Of a stretch of 64,000 nucleotides of DNA, positions 18,504 to 53,369 are shown piece by piece. The position numbers and the translations under genes were made by a program. The stretch covers positions 930,001 through 994,000 of the forward strand of contig NZ_AP023175.1 of NCBI RefSeq assembly GCF_013426895.1, read 5' to 3'. Position 1 is the stretch's first letter. Each line of letters begins with the position of its first letter. This DNA is from Paraburkholderia largidicola (lineage in GTDB: Bacteria; Pseudomonadota; Gammaproteobacteria; Burkholderiales; Burkholderiaceae). The notes under the pieces were generated by a model, which was given only the letters and a program-made list of their open reading frames with translations, ran no database searches and was not told the origin of the DNA.

Positions 18504-19247
18504 TTTTTTGTCTGCGACGCTGTTCGGTATGCTGGTTTGGTTTGCTGGCATCCGCGTGATGCCTGCGTGCTTCAAGCGTCGCCCCTGTGCGGGGCGGCAC
18601 CTACTTTTCTTTGCCGCCGCAAAGAAAAGTAGGCAAAAGAAAGCGGCTCACACCGCCAATCCTTGTGCCTGCCTGAGGGCCCCCAACGGGTCTTACACTT
18701 CACACGGCAACGCCCTGGTTCGCGTTCGTTGCCAACGTTCTCTCAGTACGCCTCACCCACTTCACGCGCCCGCACTACAGCACGCCGTGCCAGATAGTCC
18801 ACGGCCGCCCAGGTGGCAAACTGTGTGTAGGCCGGAGGGCCTCACACATCTCACTTCGGACCGATAGCACGCGCATACCGCCATGTAAGAGCGCCACGCT
18901 ATACGACGTGACAACCTACACACAGTTTGCCACCTGGGCGGCACTTACCATTCGTTGCCGCTGGCCCAGGTACGGGTATTCGGAGCGGGTGAGGCATTCA
19001 TTTGAAGCGTTAGCAACGAGAACCGGCCAGGGCACTGCCGTGTGAAGCGTAAGAACCTTTGGGGGCCCTCAGGCAAACACAAGAACTGGCGGTGTGAGCC
19101 GCTTTCTTTTGCCTACTTTTCTTTGCGGCGGCAAAGAAAAGTAGGTGCCGCCCCGCACAGGGGCAACGCTTGAAGCACGTAGGCAAAACGCGGATGCCAC
19201 CGCAAAGCCAAAGCAAAACCACCCCAGCGTCGCAGACAAACAAAAAA
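18504..19247. repeat. Long nested palindrome element, copy A (inside the mmsA-mmsB operon)
   Basis: The outermost inverted repeat is TTTTTTGTCTGCGACGCTG (18504) with CAGCGTCGCAGACA... (19225). Inside is the 652-bp core (18547-19198) bounded by GGCATCCGCG and its complement. Each arm contains GCCCCTGTGCGGGGC-like sequence, then a hairpin of 15 bp (CCTACTTTTCTTTGC, loop CGCC, at 18600-18633 in the left arm), AAAGAAAGCGGCTCACACCGCC, a TTCACACGGCAACG block, and GCCGCCCAGGTGGCAAACTG next to the centre. The asymmetric centre of about 84 bp holds CGGACCGATAGC. The element fills almost the whole gap, leaving 3 bp to the mmsA stop and 15 bp (with the ribosome site) to mmsB. No gene or transposase is present. 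Confidence 0.92.
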
Positions 19248-19250
19248 CCC

Positions 19251-20780
19251 CTACCGAAGGCTAATAGTCGTATTCACACCATCACTAACAGTCGCATCAT
19301 CAAACCACCGAGCAGTAACAGTCTTGGTCTGCGTATAAAACTGCACAACCTGCTTGCCATAAGGCCCAAGATCCCCAAGCTTGGACCCCCGAGAACCTGT
19401 AAAACTAAAAAACGGCACCGGCACGGGAATAGGAATGTTGATCCCCACCTGCCCAACATCGATCTCACTCTGAAACTTGCGAGCCGCCGCACCGCTCTGC
19501 GTGAAAAGTCCGACACCATTCCCCATCGGATTGCTATTCACCAGCGCAATGGCATCGTCCAGCGTCGGGACAGTCATCACACACAACACAGGACCAAAAA
19601 TCTCCGTCTTATAGACATCCATCTCAACGGCAACATCACTAAAAACCGTCGGACCGATAAAATTGCCAGCCTCGTAGCCAGGTACACCAACGCCACGTCC
19701 GTCGAGTGCAAGCGTCGCCCCCTCCTTAACACCCGCCTCGATGAGGCTCAAAATCCGCTCTTTCGCGGCACGCGAAACCACCGGCCCGATATCCGTGCCA
19801 GCCTCATGCCCGGCATTCACCTTCAAGGTCTTCGCCTTCGCAACAAGCTCGGGCAACCATTCCTTCGACGATCCCACCAGCACCACAACGGAAGTCGCCA
19901 TACACCGCTGCCCCGCCGCGCCAAAGCCGGCACCCACCAGCGCATTCAGCGTCTGCTCGCGGTTCGCATCCGGCAACACGACAGCATGATTCTTCGCGCC
20001 CATCATCGATTGCACACGCTTGCCGTGCTGGCTACCCAGGTTGTACACATGCGTCCCGACCGCCGTCGATCCAACAAACGAAATCGCCTTCACCAGTTCA
20101 TGCGTGCACAATCCATCGACAACTTCCTTGCCGCCATGCACCACGTTCAGCACGCCCTTCGGCACGCCCGCTTCGATGGCCAGCTCGACCAGTTGCATCG
20201 TCGATAACGGGTCCTGCTCCGACGGCTTGAGGACGAATGTGTTGCCGCATACGATCGCCATCGGGAACATCCACAGCGGAATCATCGCGGGGAAGTTGAA
20301 CGGTGTGATGCCCGCGCATACGCCGATCGGTTGACGCAGTGTATAGGTGTCGACGCTGCCCGCCACGTTCTCCGCGAACTCGCCCAGCTGCAACGTGCCG
20401 ATCGAACACGCATGCTCGACCACTTCGAGGCCCCGGAAAATGTCGCCCTCGGCGTCGGGCAAAGTCTTGCCCTGCTCGGCCGTCAAGGTCTTCGCAATGC
20501 GCGGCATGTGCTCGCGAACCAGCGCCTGGTACTTCAACATGATGCGCATGCGCGCGCCAATCGGTGTGTTCTTCCACGTCGCAAACGCGGCGTGCGCCGA
20601 GCGGATCGCCGCGTCCACTTCCGCTTTCGTCGCGAACGGCACGCGCGCCAGCACTTCCTGCGTCGCCGGATTCACAATGTCGCGCCAGTCGGTCGCGTTC
20701 GACTCGACAAATTCGCCGTTGATCAACAGCTTGACTGTGTCGACCTTGCGGTCAGCCAGAGTCGAAGGAATTGCGCTCAT
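19251..20780 (-). CDS. mmsA: Methylmalonate-semialdehyde dehydrogenase, CoA-acylating (509 aa)
   Basis: Converts methylmalonate semialdehyde to propionyl-CoA with NAD and CoA. An aldehyde-dehydrogenase fold: GVCAGITPFNFPAMIPLWM (near 150), nucleotide-binding KPSEQDPLS and FVGSTAVGTHVY, catalytic Cys in FGAAGQRCMATS (near 290), and FGPVLCVM near the end. PFNFPAM and the GQRCMA context identify the MMSDH branch. Length (509) agrees. It precedes mmsB on the same strand but is cut off from it by palindrome copy A. The last steps of valine (and thymine/inositol) catabolism are thus encoded here. Confidence 0.95.
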   Translation of the reverse strand: MSAIPSTLADRKVDTVKLLINGEFVESNATDWRDIVNPATQEVLARVPFATKAEVDAAIRSAHAAFATWKNTPIGARMRIMLKYQALVREHMPRIAKTLTAEQGKTLPDAEGDIFRGLEVVEHACSIGTLQLGEFAENVAGSVDTYTLRQPIGVCAGITPFNFPAMIPLWMFPMAIVCGNTFVLKPSEQDPLSTMQLVELAIEAGVPKGVLNVVHGGKEVVDGLCTHELVKAISFVGSTAVGTHVYNLGSQHGKRVQSMMGAKNHAVVLPDANREQTLNALVGAGFGAAGQRCMATSVVVLVGSSKEWLPELVAKAKTLKVNAGHEAGTDIGPVVSRAAKERILSLIEAGVKEGATLALDGRGVGVPGYEAGNFIGPTVFSDVAVEMDVYKTEIFGPVLCVMTVPTLDDAIALVNSNPMGNGVGLFTQSGAAARKFQSEIDVGQVGINIPIPVPVPFFSFTGSRGSKLGDLGPYGKQVVQFYTQTKTVTARWFDDATVSDGVNTTISLR

Positions 20781-28082: not shown

Positions 28083-28505
28083 TTGCATTGCCCGTTGAGA
28101 CGTTCAACACGGCTTTGCGCGCGGTGTTCGTCATGACATTGCGCAAGGCCGCTTTCGCCGCGCTTCCTTCCTTTCCGCTCCCCTCGCAATCCAACCTGAT
28201 GCGCCGCGTCAGGTATCATCACGCCCCTCGCCAGCAAAACGCACCCGGGCGCCGCCCGTTGCCGCGGCGCGCTCGCGCGCACGTCCAGACTGTTGCATGG
28301 GCTCCACGCGCACGCGGCAAATGCGGTATTTACTGACCAATCGTGATTAAATCCGCCCGTGGCGTCATGATGGTCGATGCAGCGGCGAGCCCGCGTGCGT
28401 CGCCATGCGGGACGGGGCGTCACCGCGTGGCAGATTGAGCGCGGCAGAGACGGCAACACGACAAGCAGTGACCAACGACATTTCAAACGACGAGAGACTC
28501 GGCTC
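28083..28505. other. Leader/intergenic region before the purine permease
   Basis: About 420 bp without a supported gene. Frames that cross it on both strands lack ribosome sites; I see no purine-riboswitch consensus. The permease promoter must be here but is not obvious. Confidence 0.45.
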
Positions 28506-29807
28506 ATGGACTCCGTAAAACGGTATTTCGGCTTTGACGAAGCGGGCACGACCCTGCGCGTGGAAGTGCTGGCAGGTGTGACCACCTTCCTCACGATGGC
28601 CTACATCATCTTCGTCAATCCGGCGATTCTCGGCGATGCCGGCATGCCGAAAGACTCGGTGTTCGTCGCGACCTGCCTGGTCGCAGCGCTCGCGTCGCTC
28701 ATCATGGGCTTCTATGCGAACTACCCGATTGCCTGCGCGCCGGGCATGGGCCTGAATGCGTACTTCGCGTACACGGTCGTCAAGGGGATGGGCTTCACAT
28801 GGCAGGCCGCGCTCGGCGCGGTGTTCATCTCCGGCTGCCTGTTCCTGATCGTGACGCTGTTCCGCGTGCGCGAGGTGATCGTCAACGGCATTCCGCATTC
28901 GATACGCGTCGCGATCACCGGCGGCATCGGTCTCTTTCTCGCGATCATCTCGTTGAAGACGGCGGGCATCGTGACGGGCAATCCGGCGACGCTCGTCACG
29001 CTCGGCAACCTGCACGACCCGCACGTGGTGCTGGCCATCATTGGCTTCTTCGCGATCGTCACGCTGGACGTTCTGCGCGTGCGCGGGGCGATACTGATCG
29101 GTATCGTCGGCGTGACGATCTTGAGCTTCTTCTTTGGCGGCAACCAGTTTCACGGCATCGTGTCGGTGCCGCCGTCGATCTCGCCGACGCTGTTCCAGCT
29201 CGACGTGAAGGCTGCGTTGTCGACGGGCGTGCTGAATGTGATTCTGGTGTTCTTCCTCGTCGAACTGTTCGATGCGACGGGCACGCTGATGGGTGTCGCG
29301 AATCGCGCGGGGTTGCTGGTGCATGGCAAGATGCATCGTTTGAACCGCGCACTGCTGGCGGATAGTACGGCGATCCTTGCAGGGTCGGTGCTGGGTACGT
29401 CGTCGACGACGGCTTATATCGAGAGCGCTTCGGGTGTGCAGGCGGGTGGACGCACGGGTGTCACCGCGATTACGGTTGCTGTGCTGTTCTTGCTGGCGCT
29501 GTTCTTTGCGCCGCTGGCGGGGGTCGTGCCGGGTTATGCCACGGCGCCGGCTTTGCTGTATGTGTCGTGTCTCATGCTGCGGGAGATGGCTGATCTGCCA
29601 TGGGATGATGCGACTGAAGTCGTGCCTGCGGCGCTGACTGCTCTGATGATGCCTTTCACCTATTCCATTGCTAATGGGGTGGCGTTTGGGTTTATTTCTT
29701 ATGCTGGGCTGAAGTTGCTGACTGGGCGTGCGCGGCAGGTGAAGCTCGTTGTGTGGGTTATTGCTGCTGTGTTTTTGTTCCGGTTTTTTTATCTTGGATC
29801 GGAGTGA
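28506..29807 (+). CDS. NCS2-family purine permease, AzgA/GhxP-like (433 aa)
   Basis: A proton-coupled importer of hypoxanthine, guanine or adenine in the inner membrane, with 12-14 predicted membrane segments. Characteristic of the AzgA branch are FGFDEAGTTLRVEVLAGVTTFLTMAYIIFVNP at the N-terminus (residues 7 onward), CAPGMGLNAYFAY, and LFDATGTLMGVANRAG in the middle, then SSTTAYIESASGVQAGGRTG near residue 300, which forms the substrate-binding region. Length is normal. An internal ATG is chosen; the longer frame begins within the non-coding leader. Palindrome copy B begins directly after its stop codon. Confidence 0.92.
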   Translation: MDSVKRYFGFDEAGTTLRVEVLAGVTTFLTMAYIIFVNPAILGDAGMPKDSVFVATCLVAALASLIMGFYANYPIACAPGMGLNAYFAYTVVKGMGFTWQAALGAVFISGCLFLIVTLFRVREVIVNGIPHSIRVAITGGIGLFLAIISLKTAGIVTGNPATLVTLGNLHDPHVVLAIIGFFAIVTLDVLRVRGAILIGIVGVTILSFFFGGNQFHGIVSVPPSISPTLFQLDVKAALSTGVLNVILVFFLVELFDATGTLMGVANRAGLLVHGKMHRLNRALLADSTAILAGSVLGTSSTTAYIESASGVQAGGRTGVTAITVAVLFLLALFFAPLAGVVPGYATAPALLYVSCLMLREMADLPWDDATEVVPAALTALMMPFTYSIANGVAFGFISYAGLKLLTGRARQVKLVVWVIAAVFLFRFFYLGSE

Positions 29808-39930: not shown

Positions 39931-40644
39931 GGCATCCGCGTTTTGCCTTCGTGCCTCAGGCGTTGCCGTTCGGTGTTTTGGTCTTTTCGCTGGCATCCGC
40001 GTGATTTTATTGGTCCGCTAGCGTTGCCCCTGTGCGGGGCGGCACCTACTTTTCTTTGCCGCCGCAAAGAAAAGTAGGCAAAAGAAAGCGGCTCACACCG
40101 CCAATCCTTGTGTTTGCCTGAGGGCCCTCACAGGGTCTTACGCTTCACACGGCAACGCCCTGGTTCGGGTCCGTTGCCAACGTTCTCTCTGTACGCCTCA
40201 CCCACTTCACGCACCTGCACTACAGCCCGCTGTGCCAGACAGTCCACGGCCGCCCAGGTGGCAAACTGTGTGTAGGCCCCTGGTGCGCCGCACGCCTCAC
40301 TCCGGACCGATAGCGCACGCGTTCCACCCTGTAAGAGCGCCAGGCTATACGACGCGACAACCTGCACACAGTTTGCCACCTGGGCGGCACAAGCCGTTCG
40401 CTGCCGCTGGCCCGAGTACGGGTATTCGAAGCGGGTGAGGCATCTGTTCGAAGCGTTGGCAACGAGCGCCAGCAGAGACGTTGCCGTGTGAAGCATAAGA
40501 CCCGTTGGGGGCCCTCAGGCAGACACAAGAGCTGGCGGTGTGAGCCGCTTTCTTTTGCCTACTTTTCTTTGCGGCGGCAAAGAAAAGTAGGTGCCGCCCC
40601 GCACAGGGGCAACGCTTGCGAACCAATAACATCACGCGGATGCC
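39931..40644. repeat. Long nested palindrome element, copy C
   Basis: A preliminary flank repeat GGCATCCGCG (39931) precedes the 653-bp core (39992-40644). The centre has the copy-A orientation (CGGACCGATAGC). Both ends are of the second type, GGTCCGCTAGCG on the left and CGCTTGCGAACC on the right, which are largely complementary. All internal landmarks of copy A recur, including the two 15-bp CCTACTTTTCTTTGC hairpins. It lies between the ends of two convergent genes, the DadA-like dehydrogenase and the chemoreceptor. Confidence 0.9.
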
Positions 40645-40667
40645 AGCGAAAAGCACCAGCAAACCAC

Positions 40668-42227: not shown

Positions 42228-42409
42228 ATTGTCTGGTCTCTCGCTGTCTGCCTGTTTTCGCCGAGATAAATCGGTCGTCTTTTTGTTCCATATATAAAAC
42301 ATGTGTCCTTATATGGAACTTATGCCGAGTGTAAGGCGAAAAAAATGAGCAGACCACTGCTCATTCGACGCGCGTTGCGAGGCCGCGACAACGGATCAAC
42401 CGCACGCGA

Positions 42410-43360: not shown

Positions 43361-43467
43361 GAAGTTGCGGCAACGAAGAGAAGGAGGACAGAAACGCGCA
43401 AGGGTAAGCGTTTACACCTATACAATCCAATGCCGAATCAAACCTGTGACGATACCTTTTTCGCATC

Positions 43468-44418
43468 ATGCTCGACGTCAAGCCGCTTCGCTATTTCGTC
43501 GCGCTCGCCGAAACGCGCCATTTCGGGCGCGCGGCCGCGCGGCTGAACCTGTCGCAGCCGCCACTGAGCCGGCAACTGGCCGCGCTCGAAGCATCGCTCG
43601 GCGTCACGCTGATCGAGCGCAGTCCGCGCAGCGTCGCGCTCACGGCAGCGGGCGAACGTTTCTATGAGGATGCGAAGGCGATTCTCGCGTCGATCGAGCA
43701 GGCGGCGAAAAATGCGCGCGCGGCATCCGTCGGCGACAGCGGCCACTTGACCATCGGCTTCACGATGTGCGCCGCTTACAGCGTGCTGCCCGCCTATGCG
43801 CGCGCGTACGGCGACGCCTGGCCCGACGTGACGCTGAACCTGCGCGAGGTCGTATCGAACGATCTGGCCTCGCAGGTGCTGAGCGGGCAGATCGACGCTG
43901 CGATCATGTTTCCGGGCGCGCAAAGCAAGGACCTCGACACCCGCGCGATCTTCACCGAGCCGCTATGCGTCGCGCTGTCGCGCGCGCATCCGCTCGCCGA
44001 TGCGCGTCAACTGTCGATCGCCCAGCTCGCGCACGAGCCGTTCGTGATGGCGTCGGAAGCCGTGTCGCCGAGCCTGCGCGCGACCATCGTCGATCATTGC
44101 GCGCAAGGCGGCTTCGCGCCCGATGTACGGTTCGAAGTGCAGTTGCAGCAGACGGTGTTGAGTCTCGTGAACGAAGGCGTGGGAATCGCGCTGGTGCCGG
44201 AGTCGATGCGCAAGGCGCAACTGGCGGGCGTCGTGTTCAGGCCGCTCGCCGGCGCGCCGACGATTTCGCAGATGCTCGTCTGGTCGCCGTCGAACCGCAA
44301 TCCGTGCCTGGCGCGGTTTCTGGACATTGCCGGGAAGCGGCGAACCGCACGAGATGAAGAAGCGAGCCGCGCGCCTGCCCATTCGGGTGCAGGCGCGGGA
44401 AAGCAGCGTTACAGATAA
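43468..44418 (+). CDS. LysR-family transcriptional regulator (316 aa)
   Basis: Residues 1-60 are the winged helix-turn-helix (PLRYFVALAETRHFGRAAARLNLSQPPLSRQLAALE), and residues about 90-295 the periplasmic-binding-like effector domain (GHLTIGFTMCAAYSVLP; SGQIDAAIMFPG; NEGVGIALVPES). The N-terminal wording PLRYFVALAETRHFGRAA is typical of the BenM/CatM-like subgroup. It most likely controls the divergent AEC transporter. Its last 10 bp overlap the end of the convergent cbtA gene. The effector is unknown. Confidence 0.9.
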   Translation: MLDVKPLRYFVALAETRHFGRAAARLNLSQPPLSRQLAALEASLGVTLIERSPRSVALTAAGERFYEDAKAILASIEQAAKNARAASVGDSGHLTIGFTMCAAYSVLPAYARAYGDAWPDVTLNLREVVSNDLASQVLSGQIDAAIMFPGAQSKDLDTRAIFTEPLCVALSRAHPLADARQLSIAQLAHEPFVMASEAVSPSLRATIVDHCAQGGFAPDVRFEVQLQQTVLSLVNEGVGIALVPESMRKAQLAGVVFRPLAGAPTISQMLVWSPSNRNPCLARFLDIAGKRRTARDEEASRAPAHSGAGAGKQRYR

Positions 44419-45179
44419 GCCGAGTTGCGCGCCGCCGCAGCCGACGCGCGCGCGATGCGTTCGCTGCGCTCGACCAGCGCGCCGAACAGCAGGCCGATCG
44501 TCGCCCACATGATTGCCTGCATGCCGAGCGCAGTGAAGCGGAACTTCCACAGCACGACGGCCGGGAACGCATCAGGCACTTCGTTGACCGTCGGCAGCGC
44601 GATCTGGATCGCGGCGATGATCGCGACGAACACGATCCCGCCCACGATCGACGCGTTCCACAGCCCGAGGCGCGGCACCAGATGCTTGCGGACTTTCATC
44701 GCGAACACCGACACGACGAGCGACGTGACGATCATCAGAAAGAACAGCCCGGTGCGCATGCCGATCGTATCCGGGTCGCCGACGGAAGGCGGATTCGCCG
44801 GGTACTTGATGGTCGGCACCAGCACGACGGCGACGTAGGCGCCCACGGCGAGCCACGCGGACAACGCGCGCGCGCTGAGCCGGCCGACGCGTCCGTGCAG
44901 ATACGCGAAGGTCAGCGAGAACAGCCCGCCGAACGCCATCCCATACGCGACGACGCCCGTCAGCAGTCCGAGGCCCGCCTGCGTGCCGCGGCTCACGAGT
45001 TCTTCTTCGTGATCGTGACCGCCGCTCGCGTCGCCGTGATCGTGCGCGGCTTGCATCTTTTCTTCGAACGAGATCGCCGTATCGACGAGCGGCTCGCCTG
45101 CGACCCGCGCGAACGCGAACGTGAGCAGACCCGCGACGATGCCTGCGAGCATCCCTCGCATCAACAACTTGCCAACCAT
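44409..45179 (-). CDS. cbtA: Cobalt transporter subunit CbtA (256 aa)
   Basis: A membrane protein predicted to import cobalt for cobalamin synthesis. Five or so helices are seen; the first (LMRGMLAGIVAGLLTFAFARVAG) starts at residue 6. A His/Asp-rich loop (HDHGDASGGHDHEEE, about residues 46-60) is a typical metal-binding feature. The family segments TGLFFLMIVTSLVV and ALGMQAIMWATIGLLFGALVER are present. It follows cbtB by 21 bp on the same strand under a cobalamin riboswitch, which strongly supports the assignment. Confidence 0.92.
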   Translation of the reverse strand: MVGKLLMRGMLAGIVAGLLTFAFARVAGEPLVDTAISFEEKMQAAHDHGDASGGHDHEEELVSRGTQAGLGLLTGVVAYGMAFGGLFSLTFAYLHGRVGRLSARALSAWLAVGAYVAVVLVPTIKYPANPPSVGDPDTIGMRTGLFFLMIVTSLVVSVFAMKVRKHLVPRLGLWNASIVGGIVFVAIIAAIQIALPTVNEVPDAFPAVVLWKFRFTALGMQAIMWATIGLLFGALVERSERIARASAAAARNSAYL

Positions 45180-45200
45180 GGTGATGACTCCCTTACGCGA

Positions 45201-45425
45201 TCAGTGGCAAGGAAAGCCGAGCAGGTGGCGGCCGTCGTGCACGAACTCATGCACGTACATGCCGGAAAACAGCGATGTCGCGCCCTGTTCGGCGCCGACG
45301 AAATACAGCGCAAGCAGCATCAGCAGGCCGCCGAAGACGACCCACGGCAGCAGTTCGCGCAGCGGAATGGGGGTGATGGCGGGTTGATCGGCCTGACGGG
45401 CGTGGTCGATAACGGCGTCGTTCAT
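45201..45425 (-). CDS. cbtB: Cobalt transporter subunit CbtB (74 aa)
   Basis: A one-helix protein that accompanies CbtA. The helix is at residues about 27-45 (LLPWVVFGGLLMLLALYFVG), and the C-terminal tail has the family's metal-binding motif HEFVHDGRHLLGFPCH. The ATG chosen is 9 nt after CAGGAG; earlier methionines lie in the leader. It is the first gene of the cbtBA operon and is preceded by the riboswitch. Confidence 0.92.
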   Translation of the reverse strand: MNDAVIDHARQADQPAITPIPLRELLPWVVFGGLLMLLALYFVGAEQGATSLFSGMYVHEFVHDGRHLLGFPCH

Positions 45426-45485
45426 GACGGACATCTCCTGGGGGATACGCGCCCCGATAGTCGAATGATGAGGGAAGTCGAAGCT

Positions 45486-45600
45486 TGGGTCTGGCTTCCG
45501 GCTTGTGTACAGCATGTTTGTGTACGCATTGACTGCCGATTACAGTGGCGCGACCGCGCCGGGCTTGCACCGGCTTCCGCGCTTCGAGTGGCAACTATTC
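45486..45600 (-). promoter_or_regulatory. Cobalamin (B12) riboswitch before cbtBA
   Basis: On the minus strand the conserved core is seen: GGAAGCCGGTGCAAGCC, then GGCGCGGTCGCGCCACTGTAA, and the B12-box-like GCCGGAAGCCAGACC near the end. The arrangement and spacing match the classic element. Downstream a GGGGCGCGTATCCCC stem lies right before the CAGGAG ribosome site of cbtB, consistent with ribosome-site occlusion when coenzyme B12 is bound. CbtAB genes are commonly controlled in this way. Confidence 0.93.
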
Positions 45601-45660
45601 TACGGCTAAACTGCGGAACGCTCTCCTCTTTCTTCCCATTTCCCCAACCCAGGGCCGTCG

Positions 45661-46236
45661 ATGCAAACACGCCTGTTGTTGATCAGCCACCCGGCGACAG
45701 CCGCGCAGCGCAAGGGCACGTTTCCCGCAGACGACCCCCTCGATGCGCGCGCGGTCGAAGAAGCCACGGCGTTTCGCGCATCGCACGCCGGATTGTTGAA
45801 CGCCGATGTGGCGCTCAGCAGCCCCGCTGCGTGCGCGCGGGAAACGGCGCAGGCGCTCGGGCTCGTGGCGAAGACCGTGCCGGATCTCGCCGATGCCGAT
45901 TTCGGCCGCTGGCGTGGCCGCCGTCTGCTCGACGTGGCCAATGAGGAAACAGACGCGCTCGATACGTGGACGCGCGATCCGTCATCCGCGCCGCATGGGG
46001 GCGAATCGTTCGATGCGCTGAACTTGCGCGTCGGCGGCTGGCTCGACGCGTTCCAGCATCACGGCACGGTCATCGCCGTCACGCATGCGAGCGTGATCCG
46101 CGCGGCGCTCATGCATGTGCTGCAAGCGCCGTCCGCGACATTCGCGCGCATCGAGGTTCCGCCCCTTTCCGTCGTCGAACTGCAACGCAACGAGCGCGGC
46201 TGGGCGTGGTGGCCTGCGCCCGAGCATCGCGCCTGA
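45661..46236 (+). CDS. Histidine phosphatase family protein, CobC-like, variant RHG motif (191 aa)
   Basis: A phosphoglycerate-mutase-fold protein. The N-terminal catalytic stretch reads LLLISHPATAA, so the usual Arg-His-Gly becomes Ser-His-Pro: the phosphate-accepting His remains but the Arg is missing. The second His is present in VIAVTHASVIR (near residue 140) and the acid FGRWRGRRL block near 80. FPADDPLDARA follows the first motif. It is divergent from the B12-riboswitch-controlled cbtBA, which suggests a link to cobalamin (CobC removes phosphate from alpha-ribazole phosphate), though activity is uncertain. Confidence 0.78.
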   Translation: MQTRLLLISHPATAAQRKGTFPADDPLDARAVEEATAFRASHAGLLNADVALSSPAACARETAQALGLVAKTVPDLADADFGRWRGRRLLDVANEETDALDTWTRDPSSAPHGGESFDALNLRVGGWLDAFQHHGTVIAVTHASVIRAALMHVLQAPSATFARIEVPPLSVVELQRNERGWAWWPAPEHRA

Positions 46237-46261
46237 GACACCCGCCGACGCCCACGGGCGC

Positions 46262-46672
46262 TCACAGCGTCGGACACGACAGCACCTGCTGCGGATTGAG
46301 GGTCGTGCCCGGCATGCCGTCGGTGGCGGGCGTGCCTTGGGCCGGCGTCGCGATCAGGCGCACGGCATCCGTACCCGCATTCGCGAGCACGTAGCGCTCG
46401 GGGCGGCCTTGCGGCTGCCAGTACGCGCGATAGACGCCGCCATCCTTCAGCACATGGAGCGTGCCGCGCACCGTCTTGCCGCCCGCGATGAAATCGACGG
46501 GCTCGCCGTCGCGCAACGCGAAGCCGCTTGCCGCCGACACGCTCGATGCGCCCGACGCCTCCGCGCCGCCACCTGCGCCAGACAGTACGCCGCAGGATGC
46601 ATCGGCCGATGCTGCGATCGCCAGCTGGGCGACGGTCCATAGCGCGAGCGGCGCGATCGTTCTGAGTGTCAT
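46262..46672 (-). CDS. Small secreted protein of unknown function (136 aa)
   Basis: Not recognised. Residues 1-25 form a Sec signal peptide (LWTVAQLAIAASADA, cleavage before SCGVL). The mature protein has a Gly/Ser/Ala-rich linker, then a compact beta-rich part (PVDFIAGGKTVRGTLHVLKDGGVYRAYWQPQGRPERYVLANAG). It has two Cys residues, near the new N-terminus and near the C-terminus (LSCPTL), which may form a disulphide. It is convergent with the phosphatase gene, 25 bp away, without evident partners. Confidence 0.7.
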   Translation of the reverse strand: MTLRTIAPLALWTVAQLAIAASADASCGVLSGAGGGAEASGASSVSAASGFALRDGEPVDFIAGGKTVRGTLHVLKDGGVYRAYWQPQGRPERYVLANAGTDAVRLIATPAQGTPATDGMPGTTLNPQQVLSCPTL

Positions 46673-46876
46673 GGAGAACCTCGTGTCGTCTGGAATCGTC
46701 TGGAATGGCGAGCCACGTCAAGCCTTCTGCGCGTCGCAAAGCGCATACCCAGCACGGCACACGGATAGGAAGCGACGTGAATTTTGACCGCATGGCACCG
46801 CGCTTTTTGATGTGCGATAAAAGGTAAGACTCAAGAGTCAGATCTTTCACTAGCGTTCACCGAAAAGAGGCAACCG

Positions 46877-47095
46877 ATGGCTACGCTCGAAGCGTTTCGT
46901 ACCGTGCTCGACGATGCACGCACGCCCGAGATCATCCGCAATCACATCATCGATTCGCTGCAGTACGCGCTGCGCAATCACGGCCAGGTTTTCACGTCGA
47001 AGGAAGTCGAATGGCTCGCGAAGTGGGACGACGCGCGCATACCGCTCGCGGCCAGCCGCGAACTGCAAAAACGCCTGACGCAGACCACGGACTGA
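46877..47095 (+). CDS. Small soluble hypothetical protein (72 aa)
   Basis: Not recognised. A short helical protein with Arg/Asp/Gln-rich repeats (VLDDARTPEIIRNHIIDSLQYALRN) and a second helix (TSKEVEWLAKWDDARIPLAASRELQKRL). The start has a good ribosome site (AGAGG, 7 nt upstream). No Cys, no signal peptide. The pattern of two amphipathic helices suggests a small binding or dimerising protein, but nothing more can be said. Confidence 0.68.
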   Translation: MATLEAFRTVLDDARTPEIIRNHIIDSLQYALRNHGQVFTSKEVEWLAKWDDARIPLAASRELQKRLTQTTD

Positions 47096-47609
47096 GCAAG
47101 CGGAGCGGGCGCGCGCAGCCGCCGCGCGCCAGACGGGCATGCTCCACGAAAGCGGTCAAGGGAAAGTTTCTGCTACCCAAAGCCCTGTTTTTAGGGCATA
47201 ATATATTTAACGCAGCGCTCTGCCCGCATCACCCGTCAACTTCTTCACCGTAACGCGTCAACGTCTTCTCGTCTTCGCCGCGTTGCACTGATTGCATTGC
47301 ATCCCAGCCGTCCCGTTATCGCGCAACATCATGCAGCGGCAACCCGGCGGTATCCGTCACTCCGGCCACGCGCTGCACGCCTGAACCCGACGGGGTGACA
47401 TTCGCTACGTTCGTTGCCCGCGCGGCATCAGCGTATTTTTCTCCATCCGTTCCGCGTTGATCGCGGTTGCGTTCGAGCCAGCGCATACGGCTCGCGCGAG
47501 ACTTTTTCCATTGCGGCGCGCCCGATGGCGCTGCGCCGCCCGCTGCCTATTCGCCGCGCCTGCACGTTGCAGTGACGCGCGCCGGCAGCCGTATCACAGG
47601 ACTTTGTAT
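47096..47609. other. 514-bp region with AT-rich promoter-like island and long leader
   Basis: A short AT-rich island stands out near 47182-47210: a GCCCT/AGGGC hairpin with a GTTTTT loop, then CATAAT (47197-47202), a fair -10 box, but no convincing -35. Transcription from there would give a leader of about 400 nt before the next ATG. Such long leaders occur in cold-shock or RNA-regulated genes; nothing specific is recognised in it. Confidence 0.45.
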
Positions 47610-47897
47610 ATGACGACTCAAAGCATCAAGACCTACAAGGGCTACGAGATTCATCCGCTGATCTATCCGCGCCGCACGGCGAACGGCGTGGCGCACCGCA
47701 ATTCGATCGACAGCGGCTACGACGCGTCGGTTCGCATCTGCCGTGTCGGCGCGAACGCCGCTGCCGACGGCCGCGTGTTCCGCCTGTCGTATTTCCGGCC
47801 GTTCGAAGGCGCGGGCAAGGCACGCATGGCCTGCATGGAACATGCAGCACAAGTGATCGATGGCCGGATCGACGGACAGACCGTTTCCGATCTCTGA
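47610..47897 (+). CDS. Small hypothetical protein (95 aa)
   Basis: Not recognised as a named family. Compact, probably cytosolic: starts MTTQSIKTYKGYEIHPLIYPRR, then an SGYDASVRICRVG strand, FRLSYFRPFEGAG and a terminal helix (ARMACMEHAAQVIDGRIDG). Two Cys residues. The start ATG lacks a clear Shine-Dalgarno sequence; a longer frame without support extends it by 51 codons. It lies 127 bp before the accessory IF-1 gene in the same direction, which may be cotranscribed. Confidence 0.7.
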   Translation: MTTQSIKTYKGYEIHPLIYPRRTANGVAHRNSIDSGYDASVRICRVGANAAADGRVFRLSYFRPFEGAGKARMACMEHAAQVIDGRIDGQTVSDL

Positions 47898-48024
47898 TCA
47901 CACGCGCGCCGCAAAAGGCGCGTATCACTGTCTCACCGCATCGCCGCGGCAGCCTTCGTGCTGCCGCGCAAGTTAAGCTGCGCGCCGCGCGCGGCACCCT
48001 TCCCTCATCGACCAGGAGTAATGC

Positions 48025-48288
48025 ATGGCGAAAGAAGAACTGCTTGAACTGGACGGCATCGTCGACGAAGTGCTGCCCGATAGCCGCTACCGCGTCACGC
48101 TGGATAACGGCGTGGTCGTGGGCGCGTACGCGTCGGGACGCATGCGCAAGAATCACATCCGTATCCTCGCGGGCGACCGCGTCACGCTGGAACTGTCGGT
48201 CTATGACCTGACCAAAGGCCGCATCAACTTCCGTCACAAGGACGAACGCAGCAGCGGCCCGCGTAGCGCACCGATGCGCCGCCGCTAA
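48025..48288 (+). CDS. infA: Translation initiation factor IF-1, second copy type (87 aa)
   Basis: An OB-fold protein that binds the ribosomal A-site during initiation. The sequence [29 protein letters not shown] and [33 protein letters not shown] covers the whole IF-1 domain. It exceeds the usual 72 residues by a basic tail ([13 protein letters not shown]). Burkholderia carry two infA genes; the main copy sits in the ribosomal-protein spc operon, and no ribosomal genes are found here, so this is the accessory one. The ATG follows CAGGAGTA. Confidence 0.93.
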
Positions 48289-48411
48289 CGTAGCGGCAAA
48301 CCACTGAAGCGTCCCGCGCTCGAAACCGGCGCGACGCAATCGTGAATCGACGTACCGGGCAGTCGTCGATCACAGCAAAAGATGCGGCATGTGCAATGCA
48401 TGCCGATCGAC

Positions 48412-49119
48412 TCATCCGCGAAAGACCGTACGCGGATCGTCACTCGCACTGGACTGCATACGCGTCACGACGCGTTCTTCCAGTTCCGCGAGATGCGCGC
48501 GCATCGCTCCGAGCGCCGCGTTCAAGTCTCCCCCATACAGAGCCTCGATGAGTTGCGCGTGTTCGTCGGCGGAGCATGTCGTGCCCTTCGACGGATCGTA
48601 AAGCGCCTTGTACAGTTCCGTCTTCGCGACGAGTTGCGCGACGAAACCCTGCAATTCCGCGCTCCCCGCAATCTGCGTCAGCAGCACATGAAAGTGCCCC
48701 GCGAGCCGCACCTGCTCATCGACACGCCCTTCCTTCAGCGCCTTTTTTTCGCCGGCGATATGCGCCTTCAGCACCCGCCGGTCCTGTGACGACAGCGCGC
48801 CGCATAGCGCGGTGACGATCCCCGCCTCGACGATCTGCCGCGCGCGGTAGACCTGCCGCACATCCTCTTCCGACGGCGCCGGCACGAACGCGCCGCGATT
48901 CGCTTCCAGCACCAGCTTGCCTTCGAAGCCGAGCCGCGCCAGCACCTTGCGCAGCGCGCCGCGCGTGCAGTTGAACGCGGCCGCGAGATCGCGCTCGACG
49001 AGTTGCGCGCCCGGCCGCAGTCGGCCTTCGAGCAGCGCCGTGGTGATCGATGCGTAGATGCGGTCCTCGACGTTGTCTTCATCCGCGGCAGGCGGCGGTG
49101 TGTTCGGGCGTGTGGCCAT
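48412..49119 (-). CDS. GntR-family regulator, FadR/FCD subfamily (235 aa)
   Basis: A DNA-binding regulator with winged helix at residues about 20-80 (DRIYASITTALLEGRLRPGAQLVERDLAAAFNCTRGALRKVLARL) and a helical FCD effector domain (VRQVYRARQIVEAGIV; AGHFHVLLTQIAGS with a His typical of metal-bound FCD sites; YGGDLNAALGAMRAHL). It is divergent from the CynX-type MFS gene. The region between contains twin TGGTTAACCA palindromes, the expected FCD-type operator. The start was placed at the ATG nearest the domain; an upstream ATG would add 21 residues. Confidence 0.88.
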   Translation of the reverse strand: MATRPNTPPPAADEDNVEDRIYASITTALLEGRLRPGAQLVERDLAAAFNCTRGALRKVLARLGFEGKLVLEANRGAFVPAPSEEDVRQVYRARQIVEAGIVTALCGALSSQDRRVLKAHIAGEKKALKEGRVDEQVRLAGHFHVLLTQIAGSAELQGFVAQLVAKTELYKALYDPSKGTTCSADEHAQLIEALYGGDLNAALGAMRAHLAELEERVVTRMQSSASDDPRTVFRG

Positions 49120-49233
49120 GTTGTGCGATTGGGAAGGTTGCGGCGGCGGCCGTATTTTAGCGGCGCGCGGCCTTGCACGCATGAAGCGTCGACACTATCC
49201 GCCAAATACCGGCGATAGCGGATCGGCACCGAA

Positions 49234-49266
49234 TGGTTAACCATTTTACGATATTATGGTTAACCA
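49234..49266. promoter_or_regulatory. Twin TGGTTAACCA operators of the GntR regulator
   Basis: Two identical perfect 10-bp palindromes lie at 49234-49243 and 49257-49266, with centres 23 bp apart (about two helical turns). The form TGGT-N2-ACCA fits FadR-subfamily operators. They lie 30 bp before the MFS start and 114 bp before the regulator start, so they can control both genes. Confidence 0.8.
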
Positions 49267-49296
49267 AACGCATTCGACTCATCCGCAGGATACCCC

Positions 49297-50556
49297 GTGA
49301 ACCAGACTCCCGGCATCGATACCCCGCGCATTTCGCGTCGCACGACGACCTCGGCCCTGTCATGGCAGGACGGGCTCTGGCTCTCAGTCATCGTCGCGAT
49401 CGGCATCAATCTGCGGCCGCTGCTGACGTCCGTGAGCCCATTGATGGCGACGATCCGCGCGGCCACGGGCCTCAGTTTCTCGGGCGCTTCGCTGCTGACG
49501 AGCTTGCCCGTCGTCGCGATGGGAATCGGCGCGTTCGGCGCGGGCTTGCTGACACGCGCGGTCGGCGAAACGCGCGGCGTCGCGCTGGGGCTGCTGGCGA
49601 TAGCCGTTGCGTGCAGCGCGCGTCTGGCCGCGTCGAGCGGCACGGCGTTGCTGACGACGGCGCTCGTGGCGGGCATCGGCGTGGCCGTCATTCAGGCGCT
49701 GCTGCCGGGTGTGATGAAGCAGCGCTTTCATGCACGCGTGCCGCTTGCGATGGGCCTGTTCTCCGCGTCGATCATGGGCGGCGGCGGGCTCGGCGCGAGC
49801 CTTAGCCCCTATGTCGCGAAAGCATCCGGTTCGTGGCACGCGGGCCTCGCGATGTGGGCCGTGCCTGCGGCGCTCGCGTGTGTGTGCTGGCTCGCGCTGC
49901 AACGCCGCGCATCGGCTTTCGATGGAAGAGCCGCAGCGCACGTTGCCGCGAGCCCGGCGCACCCGCATGTGGCGATCTGGAAGAAGCGGCGCGCGTGGGC
50001 GTTGGGTCTGCACTTCGGTCTCGTCAATGGCGGCTACACGACGCTGGTTGCGTGGCTGCCCGCGTATTACCAGCAGCGCGGCGCGAGCGTCGCGCACAGC
50101 GGCTCGCTGCTCGCGGCGATGACCGTCTTCCAGGCGGCTTCGGCGTTGCTGCTGCCGCTCGCGGCAGCGTCGTTCCGCGACCGCCGGCCATGGCTCGTCG
50201 CAGGGCTGTCCGCGCAACTCATCGGGATCGTCGGACTGCTCGCGTTGCCGGATGCGCTGCCGCTCGCGTGGGTCGGGATTGCAGGCGCGGGACTCGGCGG
50301 GACATTTTCGCTGACGCTCGTCACGGCACTCGATCATGCCGACGATCATCGCCTCGCTGGAAGGCTCGTTGCATTCGTGCAGGGCGTCGGTTTCATCGTG
50401 GCGGCGATTTCGCCCATCGTCGCGGGACGTTTGCGCGATCTGACGGGCAGCTTCACGGCCGCGTGGATCATGCTCGCGGCTTGCATCGCCGCGATGATCG
50501 CGTTGACCTTCGCTTTCTCGCCGCGCAGTTACGCGCGCTGGCCCGGCACGCGGTAA
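49297..50556 (+). CDS. MFS transporter, CynX/NimT-like (419 aa)
   Basis: A 12-helix inner-membrane major facilitator related to cyanate/2-nitroimidazole transporter CynX. The N-terminal cytosolic tail is 22 residues; INLRPLLTSVSPLMATIRAATGLSF in helix 1 is typical of the group, then VIQALLPGVMKQRFHARVPLAMGLFSASIMGGGGLGASLSP, and in the second half LVNGGYTTLVAWLPAYYQQRG. Its GTG/ATG start region carries the twin GntR operators. Controlled by the divergent GntR protein, it most likely imports the latter's ligand. Confidence 0.86.
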   Translation: MNQTPGIDTPRISRRTTTSALSWQDGLWLSVIVAIGINLRPLLTSVSPLMATIRAATGLSFSGASLLTSLPVVAMGIGAFGAGLLTRAVGETRGVALGLLAIAVACSARLAASSGTALLTTALVAGIGVAVIQALLPGVMKQRFHARVPLAMGLFSASIMGGGGLGASLSPYVAKASGSWHAGLAMWAVPAALACVCWLALQRRASAFDGRAAAHVAASPAHPHVAIWKKRRAWALGLHFGLVNGGYTTLVAWLPAYYQQRGASVAHSGSLLAAMTVFQAASALLLPLAAASFRDRRPWLVAGLSAQLIGIVGLLALPDALPLAWVGIAGAGLGGTFSLTLVTALDHADDHRLAGRLVAFVQGVGFIVAAISPIVAGRLRDLTGSFTAAWIMLAACIAAMIALTFAFSPRSYARWPGTR

Positions 50557-50636
50557 AACGCTTCGCGCAAGCCGACCGTTCACTGCCGGCGCTGCAGTCA
50601 CTTCTTCGCGCCAAACAGGTGCAGCATATTCGGGCA

Positions 50637-50653
50637 CGCACTGTCGCGGTGCA
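50637..50653 (+). promoter_or_regulatory. NtrC-like enhancer site upstream of nasT
   Basis: CGCACTGTCGCGGTGCA matches the NtrC consensus TGCAC-N7-GTGCA with one mismatch. It lies 67 bp before the sigma-54 -24 box. Confidence 0.6.
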
Positions 50654-50719
50654 CCGGCGGCATGCCGCCTTGAGGGCTCGAAGCTGTGCGCAGCAAACGT
50701 CAGGGCGATTCCCATTCGA

Positions 50720-50735
50720 TGGCACACAAGTTGCA
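50720..50735 (+). promoter_or_regulatory. Sigma-54 promoter of nasTS
   Basis: TGGCAC-N5-TTGCA, with GG and GC exactly 10 bp apart, fits the -24/-12 consensus. The predicted start lies near 50746, giving a leader of about 120 nt to nasT. The -12 box runs into the palindrome GCAGTAATACTGC. Nitrogen-limitation control via NtrC is the natural reading for a nitrate-sensing operon. Confidence 0.82.
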
Positions 50736-50868
50736 GTAATACTGCACGCCTCCGCGCGGGTCACGGCAGAACGCGACTGCTGCCGTCACCCGGCGCGAAG
50801 CGTCATGCAGAACCCGCAATCCAACGAATGAAGCTGCGTAACTCCCCCTACTCCATACCGGGCAATCC

Positions 50869-51444
50869 ATGCTGCGTGTTTTGCTCGTAACCGATACCGA
50901 CAAGCCCATCGGCGAGTTGCGCGATACGCTTGCGCGGCTCGGCTACTACATGCTCGCCGCCACGGCCTCGCCGCAAGCGCTGCACAAAGCTGTCGAAAGC
51001 GAACGGCCCGACGTGATCATCGTCGACACGGAATCGCCTTCGCGCGATACGCTCGAACAGCTCGCCGTGATGAACGCGACCGCGCCGCGCCCGGTGCTGA
51101 TGTTCAGCAACGACGCGAACCAGCAACTGATACGCGATGCCGTCGGCGCGGGCGTGACGGCGTATCTCGTCGAAGGTCTGGCGACGGAACGCCTCGCGCC
51201 GATTCTCGAAGTGGCGCTGGCGCGCTTCGCGCAGGAATCGCAACTGCGCGAGCGGCTCGCGCAGGCCGAGAACGAACTGGCCGAGCGCAAGCTGATCGAC
51301 CGCGCGAAGCGCATGCTGATGGATTCGCAAAAGATGACCGAACATGCCGCCTACGCGACGATGCGCAAGCGCGCGATGAACCAGGGCGTGAAGCTCGCCG
51401 AAGTCGCGCGCCAGATCGTCGCCGCAGCCGACTTGCCAGATTGA
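50869..51444 (+). CDS. nasT: NasT-type ANTAR response regulator (191 aa)
   Basis: An RNA-binding antiterminator controlling nitrate-assimilation transcripts. The receiver domain (residues 1-120; LLVTDTD, acceptor-position Asp53 in IIVDTES) precedes a coiled coil (ARFAQESQLRERLAQAENELAERK) and the C-terminal ANTAR domain (IDRAKRMLMDSQKMTEHAAYATMRKRAMNQG). The MLRVLLVTDTDKPIGEL start matches other NasT proteins. NasS follows 10 bp downstream; without nitrate NasS holds NasT inactive. The nitrate-reductase genes are not in this window. Confidence 0.93.
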   Translation: MLRVLLVTDTDKPIGELRDTLARLGYYMLAATASPQALHKAVESERPDVIIVDTESPSRDTLEQLAVMNATAPRPVLMFSNDANQQLIRDAVGAGVTAYLVEGLATERLAPILEVALARFAQESQLRERLAQAENELAERKLIDRAKRMLMDSQKMTEHAAYATMRKRAMNQGVKLAEVARQIVAAADLPD

Positions 51445-51454
51445 TGCGCCGCTC

Positions 51455-52597
51455 ATGAACTCACCTGCCTACACCTCATCCTCCGACCCATCCGGCAAGC
51501 TCGAGAAGACGCACTTGCGCCTCGGGTTCGTCGCACTCAGCGATGCCGCGCCGCTGGTGGCCGCGAAGCTGCTCGAATTCGGCCATGCGCACGGACTGAC
51601 GATCGAACTGCTGAAGCAGCCATCGTGGGCTGCGATACGCGACAAGCTGTTGTCGGGCGATCTCGACGCCGCGCATTCGCTTTACGGCCTCGTGTATGGC
51701 GTGCAGCTCGGCATCGGCGGTCCGCAAACGGATATGGCCGTGCTGATGGTGCTGAACCGCAATGGCCAGGCGATCACCGTGTCGAACCGTCTCGCCGCTG
51801 CGCTCGACGAGCACAAGACGCTGCCCGCCGCGCTCGCGACGCTCGGCCGCAAGCCCGTGTTCGCGCAGACTTTCCCGACGGGCACGCATGCGATGTGGCT
51901 GTATTACTGGCTCGCTTCGCAGGGTGTGCATCCTTTGCGCGATATCGAGGGCGTGGTGATTCCCCCGCCGCAGATGGTCGATGCGCTCGCGCAGGACCGG
52001 CTCGATGGGCTGTGTGTTGGAGAGCCGTGGAATGCTGTTGCGCAGGAGCGCGGTGTTGGCAGAACGATTGCGTATTCGAGCGAGGTGTGGCCCGATCATC
52101 CCGAGAAGGTGCTGGCGAGTCGGCGCGATTTTGTGACGCGGTATCCGAATACTGCGCGGGCGCTCGTGCAGACGATGCTTGAGGCGTGTCGATGGCTCGA
52201 TGATGATGTGCATCGGGTGGAGATTTCGCGTCGGCTCGCTGCGGATGAGTTTGTTGGCGTGCCCGCCGGGTTGATTGCGCCACGGTTGATTGCTGCGGGT
52301 TCTGATGAGAAGCGACGGGCTGTGAAGTTTTTTGCAGACGGTGTCGTGAATTATCCGCATCCCGCGGAGGGGGTTTGGTTTTTTGCGCAGTACGCGCGGT
52401 GGGGGATGGCTGAGTGGCGGGATGATTTTGCACGCATTGCGAGTGAGGTTAATCAGGTTGAGCTCTATTGCGAGGCTGCTGCTAATGTTGGTGTGAGCGT
52501 GTGTGCCGATTCGCCGTCGGCGGTGCTCGTTGATGGGCGGGTTTGGGATGGGAAGGCTGATCTGGCTTATATGCAGGGGTTTTCGATCCGGGCCTGA
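51455..52597 (+). CDS. nasS: NasS-type nitrate sensor (NrtA-like binding protein) (380 aa)
   Basis: A cytosolic relative of the nitrate-binding protein NrtA that binds nitrate/nitrite and releases NasT. The fold begins LRLGFVALSDAAPLVAAKLLEFG, with KQPSWAAIRDKLLSGDLDAAHSLYGLVYGVQLG and GTHAMWLYYWLASQGVHPLRDI later, GEPWNAVAQERGVGRT near the middle. It lacks the signal peptide of NrtA, as expected for NasS. The 3' part shows lower GC and more T-ending codons, a shift near residue 180 that does not break the frame. Palindrome copy D starts 6 bp after the stop. Confidence 0.92.
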   Translation: MNSPAYTSSSDPSGKLEKTHLRLGFVALSDAAPLVAAKLLEFGHAHGLTIELLKQPSWAAIRDKLLSGDLDAAHSLYGLVYGVQLGIGGPQTDMAVLMVLNRNGQAITVSNRLAAALDEHKTLPAALATLGRKPVFAQTFPTGTHAMWLYYWLASQGVHPLRDIEGVVIPPPQMVDALAQDRLDGLCVGEPWNAVAQERGVGRTIAYSSEVWPDHPEKVLASRRDFVTRYPNTARALVQTMLEACRWLDDDVHRVEISRRLAADEFVGVPAGLIAPRLIAAGSDEKRRAVKFFADGVVNYPHPAEGVWFFAQYARWGMAEWRDDFARIASEVNQVELYCEAAANVGVSVCADSPSAVLVDGRVWDGKADLAYMQGFSIRA

Positions 52598-52603
52598 CGG
52601 GCG

Positions 52604-53369
52604 TTTTTTGTCTGCGACGGTGGTTGGCTTTTGCTCAGGCGTTGCCGTTTGGTGTTTTTTTTGTTTTCACTGGCATCCGCGCTATGCCTACGTGCTTCAA
52701 GCGTTGCCCCTGTGCGGGGCGGCACCTACTTTTCTTTGCCGCCGCAAAGAAAAGTAGGCAAAAGAAAGCGGCTCACACCGCCAGTTCTTGTGTTCGCCTG
52801 AGGGCCCCAAAAGGGTCTTACGCTTCACACGGCAACGCGCGTGTTCGCGTGCGTTGCCAACGTTCTCTCTGTACGCCTCACCCGCTTCGCGCGCCCGAAT
52901 TACCGCATGCCGCACAAGATAGTCCACCGCCGCCCAGGTGGTAAACAGTGTGTAGGCCGAAGTACTCCACCCGCCTCACTTCGGACCGATAGCGCATGCG
53001 TTCCACCCTGTAGGAGCGCCAGGTTATGCGACGCGAAAACCTACACACAGTTTGCCACCTGGGCGGCGCATATAATTCGCTGCCGCTGGCCCTTGTGCAG
53101 GTGTCTGGAGCGGGTGAGGCATCTGTTCGAAGCGCTGGCAACGCTCGCAAACAAGGACGTTGCCGTGTGAAGCGCGGGGACGTTGGGGGCCCGTGGATAG
53201 GGACACGGGCTGGCGGTGTGAGCCGCTTTCTTTTGCCTACTTTTCTTTGCGGCGGCAAAGAAAAGTAGGTGCCGCCCCGCACAGGGGCAACGCTTGCGAA
53301 CCAATAACATCACGCGGATGCCAGCGCAAAGCCCCCCAAAAAACCCGAACAGCCTCGCAAACAAAAAAA
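52604..53369. repeat. Long nested palindrome element, copy D
   Basis: The outer motif TTTTTTGTCTGCGACG (52604) begins 6 bp after the nasS stop, and AGCCTCGCAAACAAAAAAA ends the element 7 bp before the choX-type gene's end. The core is 52672-53322 (651 bp), in copy-A orientation. The left end is of type 1 (CGTGCTTCAAGCG) and the right end of type 2 (CGCTTGCGAACC), a mixed pair. The arms contain the 15-bp CCTACTTTTCTTTGC hairpins and the GCCGCCCAGGTGG blocks. It fills the whole gap between convergent genes. Confidence 0.9.

Follow-up and report, generated by a model that had tools for sequence, protein, structure and literature searches.

What keeps a long non-coding palindrome symmetrical and constant in length when its copies are scattered over a whole genome? 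The question is raised by a stretch of 64,000 nucleotides from Paraburkholderia largidicola (contig NZ_AP023175.1, here C2:930001-994000; hereafter the window), in which four near-palindromes of about 650 bp lie between genes. A preliminary description of this stretch had read their constant size and conserved inner landmarks as a sign of selection on RNA structure. The comparison of copies within the genome, between strains and between species has shown that the dispersed copies of this element swap short tracts faster than point mutation acts, and the copies evolve as a shared pool rather than as separate sites. The object is of an ordinary kind, an intergenic palindromic repeat, with unusual size and copy behaviour; the rapid exchange is the surprising part.

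All four palindromes were found by sequence check at the positions first claimed for them. They could be aligned with each other over their full length, and the nested-palindrome family of four stands, except that copy 2 runs in the opposite orientation:

Copy 1, 18547-19198, plus strand: 652 bp, between two minus-strand genes assigned to Pfam families (17595-18488 and 19251-20780), which we take to be mmsB-like and mmsA-like, respectively.
Copy 2, 29966-30616, minus strand: 651 bp, between a Xan_ur_permease gene (28377-29807, plus strand) and a sigma-54 activator gene (31315-33816, plus strand).
Copy 3, 39992-40644, plus strand: 653 bp, flanked by convergent genes whose ends are at 39893 (DAO oxidoreductase, plus strand) and 40668 (chemotaxis receptor, minus strand).
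Copy 4, 52672-53322, plus strand: 651 bp, flanked by convergent genes whose ends are at 52597 (NMT1-like, plus strand) and 53377 (OpuAC, minus strand).

The genome to which the window belongs (9.47 Mb in 5 contigs) probably holds well over a hundred such intergenic near-palindromes of ~650 bp. In detail, a DNA search with copy 1, for which 40 of 220 candidate places were scored, returned copy 1 itself and 39 other places with 84-88% identity, each over 624-652 bp. The motif of the centre, CGGACCGATAGC, occurs at no fewer than 76 exact places, and a strict pattern of the hairpin carried by each end has 338 exact matches (reversed control, 0), which corresponds to ~169 copies if two hairpins per copy are assumed. 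From these loci 98 distinct copies were extracted and aligned. Both end landmarks (with up to 2 mismatches) are present in 92 of them, and the length measured between the landmarks is 649-654 bp in 89 copies and 661-662 bp in the other three. Both hairpins, spaced by 509-514 bp, occur in 91 of the 98 copies and a single one in the remaining 7. The nearly constant length and the landmarks are thus properties of a large and real family. Its members are ~17% diverged from one another, and even the closest pair of the 98 is 95.0% identical, so that there are no recent twins. The absence of a gene inside the element was also upheld, as the two open reading frames (ORFs) scanned, of 60 and 77 amino acids, gave no Pfam match.

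The exchange of sequence is visible in the linkage disequilibrium at 124 variable sites of the family, where mean r2 falls from 0.33 at 1 bp to 0.09 at 10-19 bp and to 0.016 at 80-159 bp, with 1/n being 0.010. There is no replicon structure: copies on three replicons are equally alike (similarity within minus between replicons 0.001, p=0.28). The nearest neighbour of a copy comes from the same genome in 92 of the 98 cases, in a comparison with copies from other species that is biased, these being mostly the best matches to positions 36000-55900 of the window.

At the two sites compared, copies at the same place in different near species are no more alike than copies at different places in one genome. 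The orthologues of copy 3 have a similarity of 0.847 (G047) and 0.828 (G106), against a mean of 0.839 for its paralogues, and those of copy 4 in four near species range from 0.803 to 0.829, against 0.838. The DNA flanking the orthologues of both copies is 88-93% identical in near species. In two more distant species copy 4 reaches 0.683 and 0.752, and in G047 it lies at the same place in the opposite orientation.

Direct evidence is provided by two strains of one species, Paraburkholderia caribensis MWAP64 and 852011, which share 22 orthologous pairs of the element (the three partial elements in L230, L231 and L233 being left out), 17 of them with both flanks matched. In all 17 the element (88.2-98.6% alike) falls below either flank (97.3-99.7%), and one element is inverted in place (74.9% identity in direct and 91.5% in reversed orientation). 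Over 16 pairs, the five without a flank and the inverted one being left out, divergence was 6.47% in the element, 1.30% in other intergenic DNA and 0.77% in coding sequence. The differences lie in tracts. When each difference was looked up in the other copies on that replicon of the two strains (5 of the 22 pairs, which lacked a flank, being excluded), both alleles were present elsewhere for 661 of 732 (90.3%), whereas 57% would be expected from random change with all bases weighted alike. Adjacent haplotypes were likewise found in other copies in 1121 of 1264 cases (88.7%), as compared with 64.1% for swapped ones. In a second pair of strains, F2 and 22B1P, 13 of 19 orthologous pairs have both flanks; in five of these 13 the element falls short of both flanks by more than 2 points, and in the other eight it agrees with them within about 1 point, a split into changed and unchanged elements which fits separate events. 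Positional identity is therefore eroded already between strains of one species, and elements can be hot spots of strain differences while their flanks stay 99% identical.

Some further observations were made at orthologous places. One element of F2 and 22B1P (L257:1824 and L278:3738) differs by 21% between flanks of 99% identity, and its two versions can be matched about as well in one orientation as in the other (78.8 and 77.4). In P. caribensis and relatives (L211 compared with L212-L215), the element stands at the edge of large insertions or deletions between strains, and in the same comparison the element of MBA4 is turned round relative to the others at the corresponding position.

The inverted arms probably take part in the same exchange as the copies. 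From the outside inwards, each half of the element consists of a weak outer repeat, GGCATCCGCG, a GC stem, a 34-bp hairpin, a second GC stem, graded inner blocks and a perfect arm of 28 nt, which borders the asymmetric centre (83 nt in copy 1). In copy 1 the arms 18546-18761 and 18984-19199 (216 nt) are 86% complementary, the 28-nt inner arms that enclose the centre are 100% complementary, and the hairpins have 15-bp stems with a loop of 4 nt. In the family alignment almost every column of the end block is at least 90% conserved, the conservation of the inner arms is patchy, and the second GC stem of the ends has T-rich tails. The parts of copy 1 are as follows:

18504-18522, plus strand: outermost imperfect repeat, left (inverted-repeat search).
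18576-18657, plus strand: left end block, of the conservation just given, common to much of the genus.
18600-18633, no strand assigned: 34-bp hairpin of the left end (inverted-repeat search and pattern).
18804-18831, plus strand: inner inverted arm, left, 28 nt (inverted-repeat search).
18832-18914, plus strand: asymmetric 83-nt centre with the motif, conserved among the copies of this genome (many of which were found through it) and not between species.
18915-18942, minus strand: inner inverted arm, right, 28 nt (inverted-repeat search).
19088-19169, minus strand: right end block, inverted (family alignment).
19112-19145, no strand assigned: 34-bp hairpin of the right end (inverted-repeat search and pattern).
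19225-19243, minus strand: outermost imperfect repeat, right (inverted-repeat search).

Of the 25 sites that vary in both arms, 24 have one and the same pair of alleles segregating on either side; at 16 further sites of the left arm the mirror site varies too little to count. If each copy were kept foldable on its own, the two arms of a copy should pair better with each other than with the arms of other copies. Arm pairs were taken from the consensus fold, and the right arms were dealt to other copies (98 copies, 252 arm pairs). Watson-Crick pairing within copies was 0.8344, against 0.8343 +/- 0.0015 after shuffling (83.4% in both), and with G-U pairs also counted 0.9059 against 0.9056 +/- 0.0010. 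Since shuffled arms pair equally well, the arm alleles assort independently between copies. The symmetry is maintained over long times, though not within each single copy. If arms and copies share sequence, both the long-term symmetry and the lack of pairing specific to each copy are explained, whereas selection on the fold of a copy's own RNA explains only the first.

The structural claims of the preliminary description therefore fared unequally. A very long stem is indeed expected if the element is transcribed, as the RNA of copy 3 folds with -486 kcal/mol, compared with -252 +/- 6 in 20 dinucleotide shuffles (z -36.6). On the contrary, selection on structure failed the test of compensatory changes within the genome, and the supposedly conserved apical domain was not recovered: the centre motif is not conserved in ten aligned copies from other species, and the centre is one of the least conserved regions when these ten single copies are set against the consensus of this genome. 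Exchange among copies, together with conserved ends, is the better explanation of the constant size and the landmarks. Complementary arms plus constant length should not be taken as evidence for selection on RNA structure.

The elements are shown to favour gaps between convergent genes, and few stand between divergent ones. The context of 97 copies comprises 50 convergent, 40 co-directional and 7 divergent gaps, and 179 background gaps of at least 80 bp, taken from the long loci of the same genome, comprise 19, 102 and 58, respectively (50/97 versus 19/179 convergent, odds ratio 9.0, p 2e-13). Genes were called by codon usage, and those running off the ends of a locus, as open-ended ORFs, were counted. 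When only the 53 copies with long flanks are considered, 32 stand in convergent gaps and 5 in divergent ones. Judged from their position and sequence, the conserved ends are probably transcription terminators for the flanking genes. A scan of copy 3 for a stem followed by a run of T gave two candidates, each with a mirror copy:

40023-40043, plus strand: terminator-like stem-loop that transcription entering copy 3 on its left side would meet; its mirror lies at 40613-40593, minus strand.
40534-40549, plus strand: terminator-like stem-loop that transcription leaving copy 3 on its right side would meet; its mirror lies at 40102-40087, minus strand.

Taken together, the elements are best regarded, with fair probability, as old, once-mobile giant fold-back repeats, which are homogenised by short-tract ectopic gene conversion and stand mostly 3' of genes, their ends serving as presumed terminators. 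The exchange would be ectopic gene conversion of the RecA type, and RecA-type repair at replication forks stalled by the hairpins is the simplest guess as to how it starts. The many near-identical end blocks, and the formation of hairpins or cruciforms at replication forks, would favour conversion. With both arms in one pool, conversion could keep the palindrome and its length alike with no selection on the RNA structure of each copy. The ends may act as terminators or 3'-end stabilisers of the flanking genes, which would explain why copies persist 3' of genes, and the original mobiliser has perhaps been lost. A bolder form of this reading, to which we would give somewhat less than an even chance, is that the ~170 palindromes of this one bacterial genome are a population with free recombination, in which the fold-back itself provokes exchange between loci and replicons without SbcCD, with the ends as 3' signals for flanking genes. 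If so, sites hundreds of kilobases apart would share alleles like the individuals of a sexual species, and the palindromes would persist as a self-homogenising network.

SbcD is a subunit of the classical palindrome nuclease. SbcCD breakage was considered as a general driver of the exchange and ruled out, as neither presence nor absence of SbcD fits element carriage (SbcC was not searched for); some carriers of the element, G084, G107 and G137, have SbcD above the cut-off.

A number of points speak against conversion in a shared pool or against the role given to the ends. The 98 copies were found through the centre motif or through similarity to copy 1, and they represent ~58% of the estimated total. 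No enzyme was identified for the exchange, and SbcD (TIGR00619) is above the cut-off in 15 of 144 Paraburkholderia genomes, the genome of the window and those of G047, G134, G106 and G021 not being among them. The gene finder is approximate and mis-called the right-hand neighbour of copy 4, a minus-strand OpuAC gene according to Pfam. The terminator scan of copy 3 yielded four sites, at both ends and in both directions, against 1.4 +/- 1.3 in shuffles, which is a weak count, and the terminator role is argued from position and sequence only. In co-directional gaps the element follows the orientation of the genes in 30 cases and opposes it in 10 (p=0.002). Mismatches in the arms are more often G-T than A-C (1764 versus 843 cells; 39 versus 20 pairs, p=0.018). 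Between species (ten single copies, each against the consensus of this genome), 11-29 pairs have changed on both sides, against 3.4-11.4 expected, and 7-19 of these are still paired. The 30:10 bias would not be expected of symmetrical two-way terminators and, together with the G-T bias and the joint arm changes, also fits a transcribed structured RNA. Orientation and G-T bias suggest that the plus strand is usually the transcribed one, or that the asymmetric part matters in the RNA.

A family of structured non-coding RNAs, with a long stem and an apical domain and maintained through selection for base pairing, would account for these three biases and for the very stable fold. We nevertheless hold it to be unlikely, because pairing within copies is no better than after arm shuffles, the centre that would form the apical domain is poorly conserved between species, and no Rfam match reached the gathering score in the 64-kb window. 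In addition, the between-species excess of joint changes is also expected from arm-to-arm conversion and from blocks of the element that are fast or slow in common.

For the earlier spread of the element, the site of copy 3, the only one examined in this way, is informative. It is occupied in G047, G106 and G134 and empty in G011, G096, G107 and G069, where the matched flanks, belonging to the same two convergent genes, are only 15-45 bp apart. From the empty sites it follows that an insertion brought the element to this place, the less simple alternative being several losses. The intergenic remains are too diverged to be aligned for boundaries or a target duplication. Incomplete and multi-unit forms also occur in the window, as detected by alignment:

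10297-10431, no strand assigned: mini version, two outer ends joined as a short hairpin without the interior.
29810-29939, no strand assigned: extra end-type units outside copy 2.
39914-39967, no strand assigned: extra end-type unit outside copy 3.
52604-52645, no strand assigned: extra end-type unit outside copy 4.

Such forms, the empty sites and the sequence of the end units, which carry GTAG beside the GC stem and also occur as ~104-bp tandem units starting at GTAG (locus L025), would suit an active giant relative of the REPINs (hairpin-forming doublets of repetitive extragenic palindromes, REPs) or of the miniature inverted-repeat transposable elements (MITEs), spread by a transposase acting in trans and varied by repeated re-insertion. 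This seems quite unlikely, as the 98 copies include no recent twins and the differences between strains are partial tracts rather than whole replacements. The transposase does not fit either: the one scanned protein that resembles a REP-associated tyrosine transposase (RAYT; L144:1126-1833 on contig C1 of the same genome) reaches 53 bits against an NCBIfam cut-off of 80, lacks the HUH motif by eye and is unlinked to elements, other transposase types not having been searched for. Its gene, with best matches of 84-100% identity, occurs in 143 of 144 Paraburkholderia genomes, among them all 16 that lack an element match, and is apparently a domesticated relative of Y1 transposases. RAYT was accordingly rejected as mobiliser, the RAYT-like gene being genus-wide and unlinked to the elements. 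Neither of the two Y1_Tnp matches of the genome has an element match within ~1.5 kb on each side, and the HUH motif is absent from both by eye. As for a parent insertion sequence with the same ends, only two insertions of the IS30 and IS481 families at hairpins were seen, with no systematic search of the genes between end pairs.

In the copy 3 orthologue of G134, an IS481-family transposase gene (L124:1131-2270; 303 bits, cut-off 224) occupies the loop of the right 34-bp hairpin, and in the genome of the window an IS30-family transposase gene (L151:1770-2786, C1:486000-491000; 306.6 bits, cut-off 80) is inserted beside the left hairpin of a copy. In G077 the convergent gap that holds copy 3 elsewhere is filled by a pair of Gp49-like and helix-turn-helix genes, resembling a toxin-antitoxin pair (L123:771-1427). 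In G021 the flanks of copy 3 lie ~1.05 Mb apart and one of them is inverted (L127, C2 around 951755 and 2008992), as if a breakpoint of a large inversion had been located at the element.

Local hypermutation or a simple lack of constraint, with no exchange between copies, would suit intergenic and variable elements but is hardly credible, since other intergenic DNA of the same loci differs by 1.30% only, 90% of the alleles already occur in other copies with local haplotypes preserved, and decay of linkage disequilibrium with distance is unexpected from independent mutation. Equally far-fetched is an artefact in which assemblers, faced with many repeats of the family in each genome, mixed up the copies, because the same pattern appears in independent assemblies of few contigs (5 in the genome of the window; four named plasmid records called complete), 8 of the 13 elements of F2 and 22B1P agree with their flanks to about one point, and the repeats are short and ~17% diverged.

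The usual picture of intergenic repeats in bacteria is that a copy transposes and then decays where it landed; here, a large dispersed family instead keeps swapping short tracts across replicons. Gene conversion has reportedly been proposed already for REPs, by Higgins et al. in 1988, according to the title of that work (cited in PMC3116915). Questions about REP-type repeats, such as whether transposition or conversion spreads them and how palindromes retain their symmetry, become testable with pairs of strains and with reporters.

The element is a repeat of the REP, REPIN and MITE kind, previously undescribed as far as the literature was searched: no description of the family was found, searches with pieces of the hairpin sequence included, most subscription journals lying outside the scope. 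In the account of small repeats given in the main text of PMC3733652, REPs measure 20-40 bp and small repeats in general 20-300 bp, and the word Burkholderia does not occur. Similarly to the GTAG-tagged REPs and bacterial interspersed mosaic elements treated there, the element forms intergenic palindromes of high copy number, often as inverted dimers, between co-directional or convergent ORFs, with GT pairing in the stems, and its ends carry GTAG beside a GC stem (PMC3733652). Unlike the REPs of that text, it is ~650 bp long, has a hairpin with a 15-bp stem in each end and possesses a palindromic interior specific to a clade. With REPINs, as presented in the relevant parts of PMC3116915 and PMC8049555, it shares two inverted end units around a spacer and a population of copies in one genome. 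It differs from them in length, which is 649-662 bp in 92 of the 98 copies as compared with the 71-bp distance of the GI doublets of SBW25 (PMC3116915, PMC8049555), in that no RAYT with the HUH motif was found linked to it (the two Y1_Tnp matches of the genome being those considered), and in the evidence for exchange between copies, the word "recombination" being absent from the main text of PMC3116915.

MITEs are given in the main text of PMC3733652 as 70-300 bp long with terminal inverted repeats of 15-30 bp, ERIC, NEMIS, RUP and Bcr1 being named. The element resembles them in being non-coding (as judged from the two ORFs scanned), in its inverted ends and in the empty sites of relatives at copy 3, but nearly its whole length is inverted, unlike in MITEs as outlined there (PMC3733652). 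Gene conversion of rRNA operons, in the part of PMC8022953 that deals with it, also homogenises dispersed bacterial copies by ectopic events. In that case there are seven near-identical operons (Escherichia coli; PMC8022953), whereas here probably well over 100 non-coding copies, ~17% diverged, belong to a recombining pool.

The preliminary description had left open whether relatives carry the core, and they do. Some match to the element is present in 128 of 144 Paraburkholderia genomes, with four candidates scored per genome, and among the matches listed at least 14 other species match over most of it. The near-full-length matches listed have identities of 85-89% (G047, G134, G106 and G021), 73-78% (G011, G096, G077, G107 and G069) and ~68-72% (G034, G023, G071, G014 and G109). 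The remaining listed matches concern the ~90-bp end block only, at 91-99% identity. In G002, G084, G016, G059, G137 and G033 the same ends surround a different and again palindromic interior, as seen by eye and from end-only matches. As judged from these matches, the ~90-bp ends are common to much of the genus and the interior is specific to one clade. By its closest matches on named plasmids, those of Paraburkholderia sp. PGU19, P. caribensis and others at 84-86% identity, the genome of the window stands near P. caribensis.

Outside this circle the hairpin is rare. A relaxed form of the pattern occurs in 16 of 299 genomes of the bacterial family, from 2 of 25 genera, with 340 occurrences in the genome of the window and 96 in the next. 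In an order-wide sample of 399 genomes, for which few near relatives were drawn, the strict pattern was found in the genome of the window only. In another genus of that bacterial family (locus L153, G699:C1:543535-545247) the hairpin recurs at a spacing of 493 bp, three times in a row and a fourth time ~700 bp further on, forming a partly tandem array.

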